In this document: piece by piece, positions 2,641 through 11,467 of the stretch
Layout of the letters: each line of letters opens with the position of its first letter
Position numbering within the stretch: position 1 is the stretch's first letter
From: Dethiosulfatibacter sp.
GTDB lineage: Bacteria; Bacillota; Clostridia; Tissierellales; Dethiosulfatibacteraceae
Assembly (NCBI GenBank): GCA_030591825.1
Contig: JAUVAG010000011.1
Coordinates: forward strand, 1-11,467
Reading direction: 5' to 3'
DNA length: 11,467 nt
Made by a program: the position numbers and the translations under genes
Notes under the pieces: generated by a model
Database searches by the model: none
Seen by the model: the letters and a program-made list of their open reading frames with translations, nothing else
Told to the model about the DNA's origin: nothing

Positions 2641-4437
2641 ATGGAATTTTTACCTGTAAATAGAAATGAAATGGAAGAAAGAGGATGGGACCAGGTTGAC
2701 TTTGTCATGGTGACGGGAGATGCCTATGTTGACCATCCATCTTTTAGTACGGCAATAATCACAAGAATACTTGAAAAATACGGATACAAGATTGGAATAA
2801 TAGCACAGCCTGATTGGAAGGATGTAGGAAGTTTTAAGATATTTGGAATGCCTAGGCTTGGATTTCTCGTTAATTCGGGAAATATAGACTCCATGGTGAA
2901 CCATTATACCTCCTTTAAGAAAAGAAGGAGCAAAGACATATATTCTCCAGGAGGAGAAGGTGGATTCAGACCGGACAGAGCGGTAACGGTATATGGAAAC
3001 AAAATAAGGGAAGCCTACAAGGATGTTCCCATAATAATAGGTGGACTGGAGTCAAGCTTGAGAAGGCTGGGACATTATGACTATTGGGACAACAAGGTGA
3101 GAAGGTCAATATTGATAGATTCATCGGCAGACATTATAGTCTACGGTATGGGGGAAAAGACCATAGTGGATATTGCAGAGGCCCTTGATGGAGGAATACC
3201 TGTTGATGAAATAACTTACATAACAGGAACTGTCTATAAAACCAGAGATAAGTCAAGAGCTTATGACTCAATAGACCTGCCGGATTTTGAAGAGATATCG
3301 AAGGACAAAAAAAGATATGCGGAAAGTTTTAAGATCCAGTATGAAAATACAGACTCCATAAATGCGAAAGTCCTTGTTGAAAAATACGGTAGCATTTATG
3401 TTGTTCAGAATACTCCTACACCTCCGCTTTCACAGATGGAACTTGATGATGTATATGACATGGAATACACGAGGGAGTATCATCCAATATATGAAAAAGA
3501 CGGTGGAATACCAGCCCTGACAGAAGTGAAATTCAGCATAATCAGCTCAAGGGGATGTTTTGGAGGATGTTCTTTCTGCGCCCTCACTTTTCACCAGGGA
3601 AGGGTAATACAGGCAAGAAGCCACGAGTCAATAATAAAGGAAGGAAAAACCTTTGTTGAAGACAGCGACTTCAAGGGATATATACATGATGTAGGCGGAC
3701 CAACTGCAAACTTCAGAGTTAAAGCATGCGACAAGCAGCTTAAATACGGAGTATGCAAGGACAAACAGTGTCTTTTTCCTGAAAAGTGTGAAAACCTTAA
3801 TGTTGACCACAGTGACTATTTGGATCTGCTTAAGAAGTTGAGAAAGATAGATGGTGTGAAAAAAGTATTTATAAGGTCAGGTATACGGTATGACTATCTT
3901 TTATATGAAAAGGATGACGAGTTTATTGAAGAACTTTGCAAGCATCATGTAAGTGGCCAGTTGAAGCTGGCACCTGAACATGTATCGCCAAAGGTTTTAA
4001 GAGCATTGGGGAAACCATCTTTTAACATCTACAAAAAATTCATAGATAAATATGAAAAAATAAATAAAAAAATGGAGATGAATCAGTTTGTTGTTCCTTA
4101 TTTTATTTCCAGTCATCCCGGCAGCACCATGAAGGAAGCTGTGGAACTTGCGGAATATATCAGGGACATGGGACATATGCCTGAGCAAGTTCAGGATTAC
4201 TATCCTACACCGGGAACATTGTCTACCTGTATGTTTTATACGGGCATAGATCCAAGAACAATGGAAGAAATTTATATACCAAATTCCTTTGAAGAAAAGA
4301 AGATGCAAAGGGCGTTGATGCAATACAGAAAGAAGGAAAATTACATGCTTGTATTGAAAGCTTTGAAGCAGGCAGGTAGGGAAGATCTTATTGGATTTGA
4401 TAAAAAATGTCTTATAAGACCGCCTAAAAAACGTTAG
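2641..4437 (+). CDS. YgiQ-family radical SAM protein (UPF0313)
   Basis: This 598-residue protein belongs to the YgiQ group of radical SAM enzymes, which bind a 4Fe-4S cluster and cleave S-adenosylmethionine; the substrate of the family is not established. The N-terminal part (about 1-290) carries the family features [25 protein letters not shown] and [18 protein letters not shown]. The radical SAM core follows, with the CxxxCxxC cluster motif at Cys306, Cys310 and Cys313 (GCFGGCSFC). A second cysteine group at 363, 372, 377 and 383 lies inside the core region; from memory, similar cysteines occur in other family members and may hold another metal or cluster. The C-terminal part (to 598) includes [17 protein letters not shown] and [11 protein letters not shown], typical of the family. 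The ATG at 2641 has AGAAAGGA at 2628-2634. It appears to be a single gene with no functional tie to its neighbours visible in sequence. Confidence 0.88.
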
Positions 4438-4616: not shown

Positions 4617-4624
4617 TGCCACCT

Positions 4625-4638
4625 TGCAAAAAATTGCA
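4625..4638. promoter_or_regulatory. TGCAA-N4-TTGCA palindrome at the capA-cdaA promoter
   Basis: TGCAA-aaaa-TTGCA matches in form the two palindromes at 9827-9840 and 9857-9870 in the presumed enhancer of ptb. It covers the -35 region just upstream of the extended -10 at 4642-4650. A bound protein here should hinder sigma-A RNA polymerase. The candidate binder is the Fis-type DNA-binding domain of the sigma-54 activator encoded at the end of this same operon. Confidence 0.5.
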
Positions 4639-4641
4639 AAA

Positions 4642-4650
4642 TGATATACT
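4642..4650 (+). promoter_or_regulatory. extended -10 promoter of the capA-cdaA-cdaR-activator operon
   Basis: TGATATACT is an extended -10 (TGn followed by TATACT). An alternative reading pairs TTGCAA (4624-4629) with TACTAT (4647-4652) at 17 bases. In either case transcription starts near 4657-4659, and the leader to the ATG at 4724 is about 65 bases. Confidence 0.5.
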
Positions 4651-4659
4651 ATTTTAGTA

Positions 4660-4695
4660 AGCTTTTTCATAGTCGCTTTGCATAGTGAATAAGCT
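4660..4695 (+). other. hairpin at the 5' end of the capA leader RNA
   Basis: AGCTTTTTCA (4660-4669) pairs with TGAATAAGCT (4686-4695) with a single T-T mismatch, around a 16-base loop. It begins almost at the predicted transcription start. A hairpin at the extreme 5' end often slows RNA decay; no riboswitch consensus was recognised in it. Confidence 0.35.
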
Positions 4696-4723
4696 GTAAA
4701 TTAAGTGGAATTGGAAGGGAATA

Positions 4724-5989
4724 ATGAGAAGAAAAAGAAGAAGATTAAACCCGAAGGCAATAATATTGGTTATTGTTCTTGTAGCGGTATATATATTGTT
4801 TACAAATATTGGAGAAGTTATTGGCAGCGATGAATTGAATCTGAATAATCTCAACAAGGAAGAGATGATAGTGGCAGAAGCTGATGTTCCTAAGACCCAA
4901 AAGATTACTCTCGCGGCTGTAGGGGACATAATTTTCCATATGAGTCAGATTAACAGTGGATACGATGAACAGACTGAAACCTTTGACTTTGACAGGTTCT
5001 TTGAATATGTGAAGCCGGTAATAGAATCAGCAGATATTGCAGTTGCAAATTTTGAGGGAACAACAGGTGGTACCAAGGAGTCTTACAAGGCATACCCTAG
5101 GTTCAATATTCCTGATGAAACATTGGATGCAGTAAAATATGCAGGCTTTGATATATTATCCACTGCAAACAATCATACTTTGGATACATATAAGGAAGGT
5201 CTAATAAGGACCCTTGATGAAATAGAAACTAGAGGAATGCTGTCAGTTGGAACTTACAGGGAAAGGCCTGAAAGTCGTGTTCTTTACGTTGAGGAAAAAG
5301 GAATAAAAATAGCTTTTCTTTCCTATACATATAGTTGCAACGGTATGGAGGCTACTATGACGGACGAGGACCTTGATGCAATGGTCAACATAGTCAATGA
5401 AAAACATGTTCTTAACGATAAGACTAAGGCTGCAAAAATATTTGAAGACATAGACGAAGCAAAAGCTGAAGGTGCAGATGTAATAACAGCCATAATGCAC
5501 TGGGGAAATGAGTATCAGAAAGATCCTTCAGTTGCACAGAGGGAATTGGCAGACTTGATGTTCATAAATGGAGTTGACATAATTTTAGGAAGTCATCCCC
5601 ATGTAATCCAGGATTCAAAAACTCTTGAATATGACGGTGAGAAGAAGTTTGTGGTTTATTCCATGGGTAATTTTATCTCAAATCAGAGACAGGAGACACT
5701 TGATTCTGAGTATCTAAACCTTGATAATTTCTATACTGAAGATGGAATAATTATAAATATTGAAATAGAAAAGGATTTTGAAACAGGAGTAACAACAATA
5801 GGTGAAATCGAATTTGTTCCTACATGGGTTTATCGGGTGAAAGCACCTCCTTTATTCGACTACGATGTAATACCTGTGGAAGAATATCTTAAGAGCAACA
5901 GTCTTAACCTTGACGACTATACATTGTCAAGAATGGAAAGGTCATTCAGGGACACTATGTCCAAAATGAATATAAATCAAAGCAATTAA
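4724..5989 (+). CDS. CapA-family protein, membrane-anchored metallophosphatase-like domain
   Basis: The 421-residue protein has a basic N-terminus (MRRKRRRLNPK) and one hydrophobic segment (about 12-30), so the rest should lie outside the cell. From about residue 60 it shows the poly-gamma-glutamate synthesis protein CapA domain, which has a metallophosphoesterase-like fold. Motifs are GD (Asp68), NFEG (109-112), NNH (149-151), MHWG (258-261) and GSHPH (289-293), all consistent with an intact metal-binding site. The ATG at 4724 is preceded by GGAAGGGA at 4713-4720. Only 23 bases separate its stop from cdaA, so it is probably the first gene of that operon. CapA proteins take part in capsule polymer export or attachment in some bacilli, but no other capsule genes are visible here, so the role may be cell-envelope related in a different way. 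The family call is firm; the function is not. Confidence 0.82.
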   Translation: MRRKRRRLNPKAIILVIVLVAVYILFTNIGEVIGSDELNLNNLNKEEMIVAEADVPKTQKITLAAVGDIIFHMSQINSGYDEQTETFDFDRFFEYVKPVIESADIAVANFEGTTGGTKESYKAYPRFNIPDETLDAVKYAGFDILSTANNHTLDTYKEGLIRTLDEIETRGMLSVGTYRERPESRVLYVEEKGIKIAFLSYTYSCNGMEATMTDEDLDAMVNIVNEKHVLNDKTKAAKIFEDIDEAKAEGADVITAIMHWGNEYQKDPSVAQRELADLMFINGVDIILGSHPHVIQDSKTLEYDGEKKFVVYSMGNFISNQRQETLDSEYLNLDNFYTEDGIIINIEIEKDFETGVTTIGEIEFVPTWVYRVKAPPLFDYDVIPVEEYLKSNSLNLDDYTLSRMERSFRDTMSKMNINQSN

Positions 5990-6012
5990 AAATATATTAT
6001 GGAAGTGGTGAA

Positions 6013-6843
6013 TTGGAATACATTAAAACAATACTAACAAATCTTAGAGTACGGGATGTTATAGACATCAGCATTGTTGCCTTTGCCTATTACAAGCTCT
6101 ATATGATTATCAGGGAAACAAGAGCAAAGCAGTTATTGAAAGGTATTATGTTTATATTTATTATTTCAGCTCTTGCAAGTGCCCTTAAGCTTTTCACTAT
6201 AAGCTGGATAATCACCAACACATTACAGGTTGGATTTATAGCTCTTGTAATAGTATTTCAGCCTGAGCTGAGAAAGGCCCTTGAATATATTGGAAGGACC
6301 ACCCTTCTTTCATTTAATGTGTTTGAGGGAGATGAAAAAAGAAACGAAAGAACAATCAAGGAAATAATGATGGCTGTCCATGCCTTGGCTAACCAAAGAA
6401 TAGGTGCTCTTATTATATTCGAGCTTAAGACAGGCCTCAGCGACATAATGGAGTCTGGAGTTGCAATGGATGCGCATATTTCAAATGGACTATTAATCAA
6501 TATTTTCATACCAAATACTCCATTGCATGATGGAGCTGTAATTATCAAGAATTATAGTATCAAGGCAGCAGGTTGTTTTCTGCCTCTTACTGAAAGCCAG
6601 CATCTGAGCAAGGACATAGGAACTAGGCACAGGGCTGCAATAGGAGTTACTGAAAGGTCCGATTCTATAGCTCTTATTGTGTCAGAGGAGACGGGCTATA
6701 TTTCGTATGCCCACGAAGGAAGGCTTTACAGGAATATTCAGAGTGAAGAGCTTACAGAGCTTCTAACAAGCATTTACAAGAAGGATGAGAAGCAAACAAT
6801 ATTTGAAAGATGGTGGCATAGAGATGGTAAAAAACAAGGATAG
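6013..6843 (+). CDS. cdaA: diadenylate cyclase CdaA (c-di-AMP synthase)
   Basis: CdaA condenses two ATP into cyclic di-AMP, the second messenger that controls potassium and osmolyte balance and wall homeostasis in Firmicutes. The 276-residue protein has three N-terminal membrane helices (roughly residues 15-33, 40-60 and 65-84). A cytoplasmic DisA_N cyclase domain follows from about 95 to 250. The catalytic motifs are intact: DGA at 173-175 (in LHDGAVII) and RHR at 205-207 (in GTRHRAA). The start is a TTG at 6013, preceded by a GGTGA-type ribosome site (6007-6011), and the alignment with family N-termini fits it. The gene is 23 bases after the capA-like gene and overlaps cdaR by 20 bases, which implies translational coupling with its regulator. 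In many Firmicutes this pair is followed by glmM; here a sigma-54 activator follows instead. Confidence 0.93.
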   Translation: MEYIKTILTNLRVRDVIDISIVAFAYYKLYMIIRETRAKQLLKGIMFIFIISALASALKLFTISWIITNTLQVGFIALVIVFQPELRKALEYIGRTTLLSFNVFEGDEKRNERTIKEIMMAVHALANQRIGALIIFELKTGLSDIMESGVAMDAHISNGLLINIFIPNTPLHDGAVIIKNYSIKAAGCFLPLTESQHLSKDIGTRHRAAIGVTERSDSIALIVSEETGYISYAHEGRLYRNIQSEELTELLTSIYKKDEKQTIFERWWHRDGKKQG

Positions 6844-8062
6844 ACTGCTAATACAAATCTTTTGTGTCATTGCGGCACTTGTAACCTGGCTTTATGTTGT
6901 GGACCAGATGAATCCGGTTACTGAAAAGGAAATAGACTCGGTTCCCGTGATACTTCAAAATACCGAAAAATTGGAAATTGCAGGTCTTGTAGTTGCAGAT
7001 GTAGATACTGATGGCATAAATATGATTATTGAAGGTTTTAGAAACGATATAATAAATATTGAAATCAACGATATAAATGTATATGTAGATGTAACGGGAT
7101 ACAACGAGGGTCTTAATAAGATTCCCGTTGAAATAATACTTCCTGACGGATACAAACTAGTTGACTACTCTCCAAAGCAGGTTCTCTGCGAACTGGAGGC
7201 CATTGTAAATAAGTCAATAGACTTGACTGTGGAAATAGATGGAATTCCATTTTCGGGATATTATGTTGATGATCCCGTATCTAGTGTGAATTCTGTAATT
7301 GTAAGAGGACCAAGAAGTGTTCTTAACTCTGCGGAAAAGGTTGTAGCATTGTTCAACATAAACGGAGCATCAGGAACTCTTGAAAAGAAGATTCCTATCG
7401 ATGTTTACAGCGACCAGGGTCTTGAGCTAAAACTTGAAATAACTCCTGACATCGCTGAAATAATGGTTCCCATATATCCCATGAAGAGACTAAAAATTGA
7501 AGTTCCAGTAACAGGCATGGTCATGGAAGGCTACGATATAAAATCAATAAAGGTTGAGCCTGAAACTGTACTTATTGCAGGTGATTCTGAAGTTATTAAC
7601 GCAATGGATCATGTACTGGTTGAACCTGTGGATGTTAACAATGCAGACAGTACTGTCTACAATTCATTGGATATTATTGGAGGAAACTATATTGTTACTG
7701 AAGATATCTCTCCAGTGGTAACTGTGGAAATAGAAAAAATCATTTCAAAGGATTTCATATACAATCTTGATGAAATAGAATTTATGAACATTCCTGAGGG
7801 ATACAAGGTGGAAATCACCGAGGATAAGGAATTTCTAATGGTAACTCTCACAGGGCTAACAAGTTATATGAATGAAACAGATAGTGAAGATATAAAAATT
7901 ATTGCAGACCTTGAAGGCTTCGAAGGAAACTCAGGTCAGATTCTATTAAAATATGAAACTGAAAAGGAAATAAAGGAAATATTGATTGATTTGGAATCCG
8001 TTGAAATAAACCTTGTTGAAGAGGGTGACAACGAGATTGGCAATACAGAAGTAACCAACTAA
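6824..8062 (+). CDS. cdaR: YbbR-domain protein CdaR, partner of CdaA
   Basis: CdaR is a membrane-anchored extracytoplasmic protein that binds CdaA and modulates its activity. This 412-residue version has one N-terminal transmembrane segment (about residues 8-26), ending in the family-like TWLYVVDQMNPVTEKEI. About four YbbR-type beta repeats follow, beginning near residues 30, 118, 215 and 305, with the recurrent pattern of a V-P-V strand and a later GP or AGD turn before V-x-A. The B. subtilis protein is about 480 residues, also with four repeats. The ATG at 6824 is chosen because the longer reading from 6785 overlaps cdaA by 59 bases and adds residues outside the family; GGTGG at 6812-6816 serves as the ribosome site. 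The 20-base overlap with cdaA marks a tightly coupled pair. Confidence 0.87.
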   Translation: MVKNKDRLLIQIFCVIAALVTWLYVVDQMNPVTEKEIDSVPVILQNTEKLEIAGLVVADVDTDGINMIIEGFRNDIINIEINDINVYVDVTGYNEGLNKIPVEIILPDGYKLVDYSPKQVLCELEAIVNKSIDLTVEIDGIPFSGYYVDDPVSSVNSVIVRGPRSVLNSAEKVVALFNINGASGTLEKKIPIDVYSDQGLELKLEITPDIAEIMVPIYPMKRLKIEVPVTGMVMEGYDIKSIKVEPETVLIAGDSEVINAMDHVLVEPVDVNNADSTVYNSLDIIGGNYIVTEDISPVVTVEIEKIISKDFIYNLDEIEFMNIPEGYKVEITEDKEFLMVTLTGLTSYMNETDSEDIKIIADLEGFEGNSGQILLKYETEKEIKEILIDLESVEINLVEEGDNEIGNTEVTN

Positions 8063-8113
8063 TAAGAAGACGGCCTTAAGACAATTAAATCAGTGAAAAG
8101 ACAGGAGGAAACA

Positions 8114-9826
8114 ATGAGAAAAGAACTTGAAGTTTTTCTTACCTCTACTCATGACGGCGTAATAGCCATAGATAAAAACTGCAATATTACGCTTTACAAC
8201 AAGGAAGCTGAAAAGCTGGTTGGAATCCCGAGGGAAAAGGCTCTAAACAAGCATGTGGATGATATTGTGGTCAATACAAGACTTCCTTATATACTTGAGA
8301 CGGGAGAACACGAACTGGACTGGCAGCAGCAGCTTAGGGACTATGATATAATAAGCAGCCGCATGCCCGTTAAAAACAAAGACGGGGAAATAATCGGTGC
8401 CATAGCTATATTCAGGAATATAACAGACAGGCTCAATCTTGATAAGCAACTCACTACCATGAATGAATTCAAGAGTCTTCTGCAGGCGTTGTTTCAGGCT
8501 GTTCAGGATGCTATAAGCGTGGTTGACGAAAATGGCGACCATATAATGATAAATCCTGCTTATACAAAGATAACAGGCATAACAGCAGATGAAATATATG
8601 GAAAAGATGCAAATTACGATATGGCCGAAGGTGAAAGTATTCACATGAAGGTGCTTAGGACAAAAAAATCTGTTGAAAACACCAAGATAACTACAAAGCC
8701 AAGTGGTAAGGTTGTAATAGCAAGAGGTGCGCCTATAATGGTTGGAGACAAGCTGAAGGGCAGCGTAGTAATACTACACGACATAAGTGAAATTAAGCAG
8801 CTGACAACCAAGCTCAACGAAGCAAAAAAAAGGATAAGGGAACTGTCTGCGAAATATGCCTTTGATGATATCATCGGTGAAAGCCAGGCGATTAATGAAG
8901 CAAAGGAAAAGATGATTAAAGCTTCCCGCGTTCCTGCTACTGTAATACTCAGGGGAGAAAGCGGTACGGGAAAGGAAATGTTCGCCCATGCAATCCACAA
9001 CGAAAGCAATAGGCGGGAGAACCAGTTCGTAAGAGTAAACTGTGCAGCAATACCTGAGACACTTCTTGAAAGCGAACTTTTCGGCTATGAGGAAGGAGCT
9101 TTTACAGGAGCAAAAAAAGGCGGCAAGAAGGGTTACTTTGAAGAAGCCAACAACGGAACAATATTTCTTGATGAAATATCGGAGATTAATCTGAACGCTC
9201 AGGTTAAACTGTTAAGGGTATTGCAGGAAAAGGAAATAGCAAGGGTTGGAGGAGTAAAGCCCATCCATGTAAATGTAAGGGTGATTTCAGCAACCAATGT
9301 TAACCTGAGAGATAAGATAGACAGGGGAGAGTTCAGGGACGATTTATACTACAGACTGAATGTTTTTCCAATAGATATTCCTCCATTGAGAGACAGGCTT
9401 GATGACATAGAGCTTCTTTCTAAAAGATTCATTGAAAAGCTTAATGTGGAATACGGAAGGAATATAAAGGGAATATCCCTTAAGGCTTTGTCGGAACTAA
9501 AGAGGCATGACTGGCCTGGAAACGTCAGGGAGCTTGAAAACATCATCGGCAGATCCATTATATCAATGAATGCAAATGAGCAGATAATTATGAAGGATCA
9601 TCTTCCATTTCTTACAAATCTTGGAATAAGGAATAATGGAGATTATATCAATGAAATTGAGGACAGTGAAATCACCACTTTGACTGAAGCTGCCGCCGGA
9701 TTCGAAGAGGATTATTTAAAAAGAGTATATGAGATTTACGACTACAACAAAACCATGACTGCAAAAAAACTTGGAATATCCATTAGAAGCCTTTATTACA
9801 AGATGGAAAAACACAATATCAAATAA
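8114..9826 (+). CDS. sigma-54-dependent activator, PAS-PAS-AAA+-Fis
   Basis: This 570-residue enhancer-binding protein activates RNA polymerase holding sigma-54. Two PAS sensor domains come first (about 5-105 and 118-230), then a short coiled-coil linker (about 232-252) and the AAA+ domain. The AAA+ domain has Walker A GESGTGKE (281-288), the sigma-54 contact loop GAFTGA (328-333), Walker B GTIFLDE (348-354) and the arginine region [14 protein letters not shown]-terminal Fis-type helix-turn-helix ends the chain (about 540-570, including [15 protein letters not shown]). All motifs needed for activity are present, and no receiver domain is seen, so control is through the PAS ligand. The ATG at 8114 follows AGGAGG (8103-8108); an in-frame GTG at 8093 has no such site. 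The gene is 51 bases after cdaR with no terminator between. Its position directly before a -24/-12 promoter and ptb-buk resembles BkdR-type control of branched-chain acyl-CoA genes. Confidence 0.92.
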
Positions 9827-9889
9827 TGCAAGAAGTTGCATGGTTTTGTGATTGTATGCAAAATATTGCATGCAAAAACAAGCATGCAA
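9827..9889. promoter_or_regulatory. candidate enhancer (upstream activator sites) for ptb-buk
   Basis: Directly after the activator stop codon lies a cluster of inverted TTGCA(T) half-sites. These are TGCAA-gaag-TTGCA (9827-9840), TGCAA-aata-TTGCA (9857-9870), the palindrome TTGCATGCAA (9866-9875), and TTGCATGC-N8-GCATGCAA (9866-9889). The cluster lies about 105-167 bases upstream of the start expected from the -24/-12 promoter, the usual distance for sigma-54 enhancer sites. Confidence 0.7.
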
Positions 9890-9911: not shown

Positions 9912-9968
9912 AAGATGAAGCGTAGTGTTTTCAATGATTTGAAAACATTATGCTTCATTTTGATTTTT
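9912..9968 (+). terminator. long hairpin terminator after the activator gene
   Basis: A 19-pair stem (9915-9933 with 9940-9958, two G-T wobbles) closes a six-base loop, and can be lengthened by three weak pairs. A T-rich tract (TTTTGATTTTT, 9958-9968) follows. It should end the capA-cdaA-cdaR-activator transcript and lies between the enhancer cluster and the sigma-54 promoter. Confidence 0.75.
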
Positions 9969-9984
9969 GGCACGTATCTTGCTT
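9968..9984 (+). promoter_or_regulatory. sigma-54 (-24/-12) promoter of ptb-buk
   Basis: TGGCAC (9968-9973), a five-base spacer and TTGCTT (9979-9984) match the sigma-54 consensus TGGCAC-N5-TTGCW at every fixed position, with GG and GC exactly 10 bases apart. Transcription should begin near 9994, giving a 25-base leader. The adjacent activator gene makes the assignment firm. Confidence 0.88.
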
Positions 9985-10018: not shown

Positions 10019-10915
10019 ATGAAAGATTTCAACGAAGTTTTGAAATATGCAAAAATTAAGGGACCAAAGACATTGTCGGTTGCAGCTGCTCATGATGAAG
10101 GTGTGTTGAAGGCTGTGAAGGCGGCGGCGGTTGATGGTGGAATAGTAAAAGCAATTCTCGTAGGAGATGAGGAAAAGATAAGAAATATTTCCAAAGGTAT
10201 AGACTATGATTTGAAGGATACCGAAATAATTAATCTTAAAGATGTAAAGGAAGCATCATACAAGGCCGTAGAGTTAGTAAGTTCAAAAAAAGCTGATTTT
10301 GTAATGAAGGGTCTTGTTGATACTGCAACAATATTGAAGGCAGTTCTTGACAAGGAAATAGGCTTGAGGACTGGAAAGACTTTAAGTCATTGCGCAGTGT
10401 TCTTTGTGGAAAAATACCACAAGATGCTCATTGTGACGGATGCAGCCATGAATATAGCTCCTGATCTGGCGAAAAAAGAGGAAATACTTGAAAATGCTGT
10501 AAACTTTGCACATTCACTTGGAATCGAGGTTCCGAAATGTGCAGTAATATGTGCCAAGGAAAAAGTGAACCCGGCAATGATTCATACTGTAGATGCAGGT
10601 GAAATGGTGAAGCATAACGAAGAAGGAATAATAAAAGGATGCATAGTTGGCGGACCTTTTGCTCTTGACAATGCAATATCAAAGGAAGCCGCAGTACAAA
10701 AGGGAATAAGCCACGAAGTGGCGGGAGATGCGGATATTCTCCTCATGCCTACCATAGAAGCAGGCAATGTGCTGTACAAGGCACTGTCATTCCTTTCCAA
10801 TTCCGAATCGGCAGGAGTAATACTTGGAGCAGCAGCACCCATAGTGCTGACTTCAAGAGCAGATACAGACATAGCCAAGCTTAATTCAATAGCTTTGGCA
10901 TCAATACATTCATAA
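10019..10915 (+). CDS. ptb: phosphate butyryltransferase
   Basis: The enzyme exchanges the CoA of butyryl-CoA (or a branched-chain acyl-CoA) for phosphate, giving an acyl-phosphate for the kinase encoded next. The 298-residue protein has the length of the family and the phosphotransacylase fold signature, with TDAAMN at 140-145, GGPFALDNAIS around 203-213, and the C-terminal GAAAPIVLTSRAD at 270-282. The ATG at 10019 is preceded by GAGAGGTG (10007-10014). A longer reading from 9950 would start upstream of the predicted transcription start and is rejected. The gene is under a sigma-54 promoter, as in operons for branched-chain acid breakdown (bkd type), so isobutyryl-, isovaleryl- or butyryl-CoA are all possible substrates. 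Butyrate against branched-chain use cannot be told from sequence. Confidence 0.9.
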   Translation: MKDFNEVLKYAKIKGPKTLSVAAAHDEGVLKAVKAAAVDGGIVKAILVGDEEKIRNISKGIDYDLKDTEIINLKDVKEASYKAVELVSSKKADFVMKGLVDTATILKAVLDKEIGLRTGKTLSHCAVFFVEKYHKMLIVTDAAMNIAPDLAKKEEILENAVNFAHSLGIEVPKCAVICAKEKVNPAMIHTVDAGEMVKHNEEGIIKGCIVGGPFALDNAISKEAAVQKGISHEVAGDADILLMPTIEAGNVLYKALSFLSNSESAGVILGAAAPIVLTSRADTDIAKLNSIALASIHS

Positions 10916-11078: not shown

Positions 11079-11467
11079 ATGAAACAATTGGTAATCAATC
11101 CAGGATCGACTTCGACAAAGATTGCAGTATTTGATAATCTTGAAATGATCTTTGAAAAAACATTGAGACATACAGTTGAAGAACTGTCACCATATGAAAA
11201 AATAATTGAAGAATTCGAATTCAGGAAAAATATTATCATGGAAGCGTTAAAAGAGAACAAAATAAAGGTAGAAGAATTGGCATCGGTTGTAGGAAGAGGT
11301 GGCCTTTTAAAGCCTATGGCTGGAGGAACCTACGAAGTTTCAGATAAAATGCTTGAAGACCTTAAGTCTGGTGCTAGAGGAGAACACGCTTCTAATCTGG
11401 GAGGAATACTTGCCTATGAAATAGCAAGGGAGGTAAACATACCATCTTTTGTAGTGGATCCTGTAGT
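11079..11467 (+). CDS. buk: butyrate kinase (N-terminal part, cut by window end)
   Basis: Butyrate kinase turns butyryl-phosphate and ADP into butyrate and ATP, the energy-yielding last step of butyrate fermentation; relatives act on branched-chain acyl-phosphates. The visible 129 complete codons, against about 355 in the family, begin with the acetate/butyrate kinase phosphate-binding signature ([10 protein letters not shown], 5-14). [12 protein letters not shown] (72-83) and [12 protein letters not shown] (98-109) follow, the latter near the substrate-binding site. The ATG at 11079 has AGGAGG at 11065-11070. The 163-base gap after ptb is longer than usual for this pair. The reading frame is open to the last base, so the gene runs past the window and is not broken as far as seen. 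Confidence 0.92.

Follow-up and report, generated by a model that had tools for sequence, protein, structure and literature searches.

The stretch of DNA analysed here (hereafter the window) comprises 11,467 nucleotides of contig JAUVAG010000011.1 from a Dethiosulfatibacter genome (assembly GCA_030591825.1). On its forward strand it codes for a CapA-like protein, the diadenylate cyclase CdaA, the YbbR-repeat protein CdaR, a sigma-54-dependent activator of the BkdR type, a phosphate butyryltransferase (ptb) and, cut by the end of the window, a butyrate kinase (buk) (Table 1). Our subject is the palindrome TGCAA-N4-TTGCA, which recurs on both sides of the capA-cdaA-cdaR-activator gene row and could join the control of ptb-buk to that of the genes for cyclic di-AMP (c-di-AMP) synthesis.

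Table 1. Features of the window discussed in the text (all on the forward strand)
Feature	Position	Strand	Basis or remark
Predicted -35 hexamer TTGCAA of the capA operon promoter	4624..4629	+	Conserved; shares TGCAA with the left arm of the operator
Operator TGCAAAAAATTGCA, proposed EBP repressor site	4625..4638	+	Exact match; same place in 8/8 family genomes and in G185
Predicted -10 hexamer TACTAT of the capA promoter	4647..4652	+	Conserved TANTAT 17 bp after TTGCAA
capA-like gene (PGA_cap), first of the operon	4724..5989	+	PF09587, E 1e-72
cdaA, diadenylate cyclase	6013..6843	+	TIGR00159, 256.7 bits against a cut-off of 188.8
cdaR (YbbR repeats)	6824..8062	+	PF07949 (scan used a longer frame, start 6785)
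BkdR-type sigma-54 activator (EBP): PAS, PAS, AAA+ with GAFTGA, Fis-type HTH	8114..9826	+	Pfam
Enhancer site S1 TGCAAGAAGTTGCA	9827..9840	+	Exact match; S1 of the array
Enhancer site S2 TGCAAAATATTGCA	9857..9870	+	Exact match; S2 of the array
Enhancer site S3, degenerate TGCAAAAACAAGCA	9871..9884	+	Score 10.3; missed in the earlier note
Intrinsic terminator of the EBP operon	9913..9960	+	20-pair stem, then T-rich tail
Sigma-54 promoter TGGCACGTATCTTGCT	9968..9983	+	Read from sequence; same place in relatives
ptb, phosphate butyryltransferase	10019..10915	+	NF004472, 427.3 bits against a cut-off of 399
buk, butyrate kinase, truncated by the window end	11079..11465	+	TIGR02707 partial, 189.7 bits

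The activator shows the features of a bacterial enhancer-binding protein (EBP) for sigma-54: an AAA+ domain (PF00158, 235.7 bits) that has both Walker motifs, A and B, and also GAFTGA (residue 328), a Fis-type helix-turn-helix (HTH) domain (PF02954), and a sigma-54 DNA-binding domain encoded elsewhere in the same genome (E 1.6e-65). Its two PAS domains and the position of its gene directly upstream of the sigma-54 ptb promoter fit the published description of the BkdR type. The nearest relative found in a search of genome contigs is that of Dethiosulfatibacter aminovorans DSM 17477, at 89% identity. As to the neighbouring products, that of ptb scores 393.3 bits with the equivalog TIGR02706, short of the 410.5 required, and an NCBIfam profile search of cdaR gave no match.

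The exact palindrome occurs three times in the window and nowhere else in it, each time outside the annotated genes: one copy lies between a radical-SAM gene, which stops at 4437, and capA, and the next begins right after the EBP stop codon. By chance 0.02 exact copies are expected per window, and none of 200 shuffles reached three; the earlier note, made from the sequence alone, had described the three copies as non-coding and far above chance at a rough expectation of 0.01, and both statements hold. Allowing up to two mismatches gives 14 sites where 8.73 would be expected, so that the enrichment is clear for the exact form only. In the genome assembly as a whole (1.77 Mb in 351 contigs, 68.3% complete) the exact form is found four times and the reversed control pattern not at all. 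The one copy outside the window falls within a 95-residue coding frame, which we take to be that of ribosomal protein L27. The three copies of the window are therefore all the exact copies that lie outside open reading frames (ORFs) in the available part of the genome.

For comparison, 60 relatives were searched with the EBP, of which at least 57 gave a match; the 29 matches at orthologue level were taken, and lower ones were counted as other EBPs, among which G007 later showed a cut orthologue (L182). Loci L122, L135 and L137, where no capA was found, were excluded from the enhancer and capA scan; L143 was used neither for the enhancer arrays nor for the tree, and L024-L084 were no part of the analysis. 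Among the 27 loci scanned for enhancers, L143 yields none as its contig ends inside the EBP gene; all 26 with a readable region carry the motif next to the EBP, and in the 150 bp or so 3' of it they have 63 sites with at most one mismatch. The layout of these arrays is regular: the first site (S1) lies 1-34 bp past the EBP match, the second (S2) follows 26-30 bp on in 25 of the 26 loci (L128 lacks S1), and a further scoring site stands 14 bp past S2 in all 26 at a lax threshold (score 4). The sigma-54 promoter TGGCACGTATCTTGCT starts 141 and 111 bp downstream of the starts of S1 and S2, and a strict sigma-54-like match is found at the corresponding place in 22 of the 28 relatives with a readable region. 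These arrays bear out the earlier placement of two of the copies at a sigma-54 enhancer position and make the EBP very probably the protein that binds the motif. Between enhancer and promoter lies an intrinsic terminator (three overlapping matches against 0.1 in shuffles), which argues that the enhancer probably sits in the 3' untranslated end of its binder's own transcript.

The remaining copy has a different setting. Upstream of capA the palindrome overlays the -35 hexamer and part of the 17-bp spacer of a predicted promoter, and in all eight family genomes a TTGCAA-N17-TANTAT promoter with the palindrome at this one fixed place precedes capA-cdaA-cdaR-EBP. An EBP-type site thus lies over a sigma-70-type promoter of what appears to be the EBP's own operon, promoter and operon being predicted from conservation and gene order. 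Across 249 genomes of the order, the composite TTGCAA-N4-TTGCA-N8-TANTAT matches in 13 and its reversed control in none of the 249. In the family it occurs once per genome and always before capA (8/8); genome G185 of the sister family has two matches, one before capA and the other inside a 603-residue ORF, and G142, G221, G013 and G247 have one each. In none of the 3-kb loci of these last five matches was capA seen. On the strength of the shuffles and of this search with its reversed control, a chance origin of the motif copies was rejected. Since the left arm falls on the -35 hexamer, the right arm alone counts as independent evidence. In the eight family promoters, which are every family genome in the set and so were not selected by the motif, all five right-arm columns are invariant against two of the 12 other spacer columns (Fisher p 0.003, uncorrected for relatedness), and mean pairwise identity is 1.00 in the right arm against 0.59 in the rest of the spacer. 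The site and its conservation are almost certainly real.

Beyond the family, capA matches were found in 25 of the 27 genomes of the sister family, 24 with a readable promoter (L224 was dropped at a contig edge). TTGCAA and the 17-bp spacing are kept in all 24. A palindrome with one mismatch is present in 15, and only G185 has the exact form. The right arm reads TTGCA in one promoter, TTTCA in 15, ATTCA in two, CTTCA in one and TATAA, CTTTG or CAATG in five; TTTCA corresponds to the TGAAA form of the enhancer sites in the same genus (L140, L141). In a tree of the EBPs, family and sister family form one group (11 of 30 rows; support 100/100), from which a single origin of the operator in their common ancestor, with partial decay in one genus, would be the simplest history. 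As a separate observation, in genus g22 of the sister family (L139-L142) the alignment of the EBP orthologues with the query does not begin before about residue 106-117, and they seem to lack the first PAS domain. This genus with a seemingly shortened EBP is the one with the degenerate operator; in G185, of the same family, the EBP is of full length.

The eight family genomes together hold 46 exact sites, of which eight are capA operators, nine are enhancer sites and 29 lie elsewhere. Twenty-four of these 29 are inside ORFs, one in the 95-residue frame and 23 in ORFs of at least 186 residues, for which reason we rejected a large regulon; the reversed control pattern occurs once each in G001 and G005. 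The sites in L161, L162 and L186 have no strict sigma-54-like match within 400 bp. At 2326-2357 of L167 (G002), two exact copies pair, by eye, as the two sides of a hairpin with T residues after it. This hairpin, which may be a terminator or a second enhancer, lies 3' of another EBP gene; a permease-like gene with a sigma-54-like promoter follows, the promoter some 220 bp further on.

From the sites, the promoter-like sequence, their conservation and the gene order, all read by sequence comparison, we infer a dual role for the EBP encoded at 8114-9826, with TGCAA-N4-TTGCA as its binding site. Bound to the three tandem sites at 9827-9884, it would loop to sigma-54 polymerase and activate ptb-buk; bound to the capA site, it would cover the -35 and spacer, exclude sigma-A RNA polymerase and lower transcription of its own, presumably co-transcribed, operon. 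A regulator of acyl-phosphate fermentation would thereby also limit transcription of cdaA. We give this reading as a whole, activation of ptb-buk through the enhancer together with repression of the capA-cdaA-cdaR-EBP operon through the extra site, a probability of about 0.72; repression of the capA operon by the EBP, taken by itself, is likely. Reduced to its simpler core, the reading is that the activator negatively autoregulates the operon in which it is encoded, NtrC-like in logic. The earlier note had proposed an activator that works on ptb-buk while repressing its own operon, including the c-di-AMP synthase, through a site over the -35 region. The overlap with the predicted -35 is confirmed, and so is conservation of the site upstream of capA and cdaA in relatives, on which that proposal had been staked; the enhancer arrays and the promoter geometry partly support the rest. 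The feedback loop that it had drawn is not order-wide, since scanned loci of other families have no site at capA.

One competing account is that the capA-side site is the -35 of a promoter and nothing else, with a coincidental palindrome to which nothing binds. The left arm is indeed the -35, and among the sister-family promoters, all with TTGCAA, eight of 24 have a right arm that is neither TTGCA nor TTTCA; this account is nonetheless unlikely, for no promoter element accounts for the right arm, which is invariant throughout the family while other spacer positions vary. Another regulator might instead occupy the capA site, such as the LacI-family protein encoded at 1529-2581 or a second sigma-54 activator, given 29 EBP-like matches in the window's genome. 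CcpA-type cre boxes have a similar outline, and LacI-family sites usually have a central CG. A central CG is found in none of the 63 enhancer sites and none of the nine capA operators, on which ground a LacI-family or cre-like operator was rejected; the motif moreover marks this EBP's own enhancer, and the other exact sites of the family lie mostly inside ORFs, so that a different binder appears improbable. Finally, enhancer-binding proteins are usually activators, and the EBP might drive the capA operon in a positive feedback. No GG-N10-GC is present within 200 bp downstream of the capA site in any of the eight family genomes (in G185 there are two loose matches, one at the start of capA and one after it), and a protein bound over an arm that doubles as the -35 should keep sigma-A polymerase out; with this arrangement repression is the natural geometry, and we regard activation as very unlikely.

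Besides the variable right arms in the sister family, several observations weigh against repression of the capA operon by the EBP or narrow its range. The left arm is not independent evidence, as said above. TTGCAA/TACTAT falls below the threshold of a simple promoter scan, which reported two other sites in that region, a yield equal to that of shuffles; and the EBP gene may have an internal promoter of its own. The position weights were trained on the exact and one-mismatch enhancer sites, so that the scores are partly circular. By these scores, 16 of the 27 scanned loci, all from other families, have no capA site within 400 bp of the capA match, nor on a recheck of 1000 bp (964 in L134): the best score before capA within 1000 bp in these loci is 5.7, against 16.9-21.0 in the family loci, and the best scores in gene gaps are 8.5 (L126) and 6.8 (L134), where the weakest enhancer site has 9.9. 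All 16 keep the enhancer array. Between capA and the EBP, three of them have sites above 9.9 (L134 with 13.0 where the cdaA match begins, L124 with 11.9 inside cdaA and L138 with 10.2 where the capA match ends), which we took as chance occurrences in coding DNA.

The proposed repression by the EBP bears on c-di-AMP through the composition of the operon: the synthase would be co-regulated because cdaA lies in the activator's own operon. Each of nine genomes searched, among them the incomplete one of the window as well as G001 and G185, which are rated 100% complete, has exactly one DAC-domain match, and this match is the cdaA of the locus; the operator hence sits before the only diadenylate cyclase gene detected. 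That the cell's c-di-AMP would change to a physiologically relevant extent is a matter of even chances. The transcriptional control of diadenylate cyclases in bacteria is, to our knowledge, poorly known, and a literature search, in which most subscription journals were out of reach, found, among the papers listed, no published link of an EBP with cdaA and no published sigma-54 control of ptb-buk. If true, the proposed repression would tie the one c-di-AMP synthase gene detected to a metabolic regulator in a concrete way. Upstream of the operon, positions 86-2581 of the window hold a short-chain fatty acid transporter gene along with the LacI-family gene, another fermentation-related neighbour.

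The same motif occurs in a further setting in Alkalibacillus (L014, 9613 to about 11723; also L015, L018 and L019). In the four aligned EBP relatives from these loci GAFTGA is absent, and the Walker motifs and a similar HTH are retained; the rows of L016 and L017 were not counted and L021 was absent from this alignment, in which four other relatives (L006, L010, L011, L013) have GAFSGA. The sigma-54 DNA-binding domain was not found in any of the four Alkalibacillus genomes, for which completeness is not given, and was found in nine others searched. The strict pattern found no sigma-54-like promoter in five Alkalibacillus loci, nor did a looser pattern applied to the surroundings of ptb in L014, L015 and L019. 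Instead, the exact motif stands, by eye, 7 bp past the -10 of a TTGCA(T/A)-N17-TAT(C/G)AT promoter upstream of the EBP-ptb genes. The loss of GAFTGA, the failure to detect sigma-54 and the location of the motif at a sigma-A-type promoter together favour repression through the motif, and the Alkalibacillus EBP looks like an activator turned repressor. As this is a single genus, it probably represents one evolutionary event. If true, it would be a clear case of a sigma-54 activator that became a sigma-A regulator after the loss of sigma-54, with its DNA site kept. The extension of the EBP in L014 had no Pfam match; a relative in Brevibacillus (L007, 9656-11728) has an N-terminal extension resembling DapB_N, an NAD-binding domain.

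A broader scenario can be framed, whose chances we consider evenly balanced: one regulator may exert reciprocal control, raising ptb-buk through sigma-54 and lowering the operon of the only c-di-AMP synthase through sigma-A, and so tie the supply of c-di-AMP to the state of fermentation; this wiring may have arisen once, in the ancestor of the two sister families, with the motif elsewhere, in Alkalibacillus, becoming a pure sigma-A control site after sigma-54 was lost.

Parts of this arrangement have counterparts among known systems. BkdR of Bacillus, activator of the bkd operon, is likewise a PAS-PAS-AAA+-Fis protein encoded just upstream of the sigma-54 promoter of a ptb-type gene, and that of B. 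thuringiensis activates HD73_4468, a phosphate butyryltransferase (PMC4428206). In the Bacillota relatives of L005, L007 and L013 a sigma-54-like promoter is likewise preceded by the motif, with ptb next in L013. Unlike the BkdR gene of Bacillus, the EBP gene here ends a capA-cdaA-cdaR row and precedes ptb-buk, and there is an extra operator at the promoter of that row. A survey of clostridial EBP regulons describes how EBPs encoded nearby control butyrate and alcohol genes through sigma-54, in many cases from several upstream sites; its Table 1 has no cdaA target and no ptb-buk operon, one group targeting a butK-containing operon, and neither ptb nor buk is mentioned in its main text (Nie et al. 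2019, PMC6615313). In Caulobacter, NtrC, which is without GAFTGA, is reported to act on sigma-70 promoters and to be a repressor of the operon that encodes it (PMC10274813). The autoregulation of NtrC is alike in that an activator of the sigma-54 type turns down its own operon through a housekeeping promoter. It differs in regulator, motif and targets: the EBP of the window, in contrast to the Caulobacter protein, keeps GAFTGA, and the operon that it is proposed to repress contains a diadenylate cyclase.

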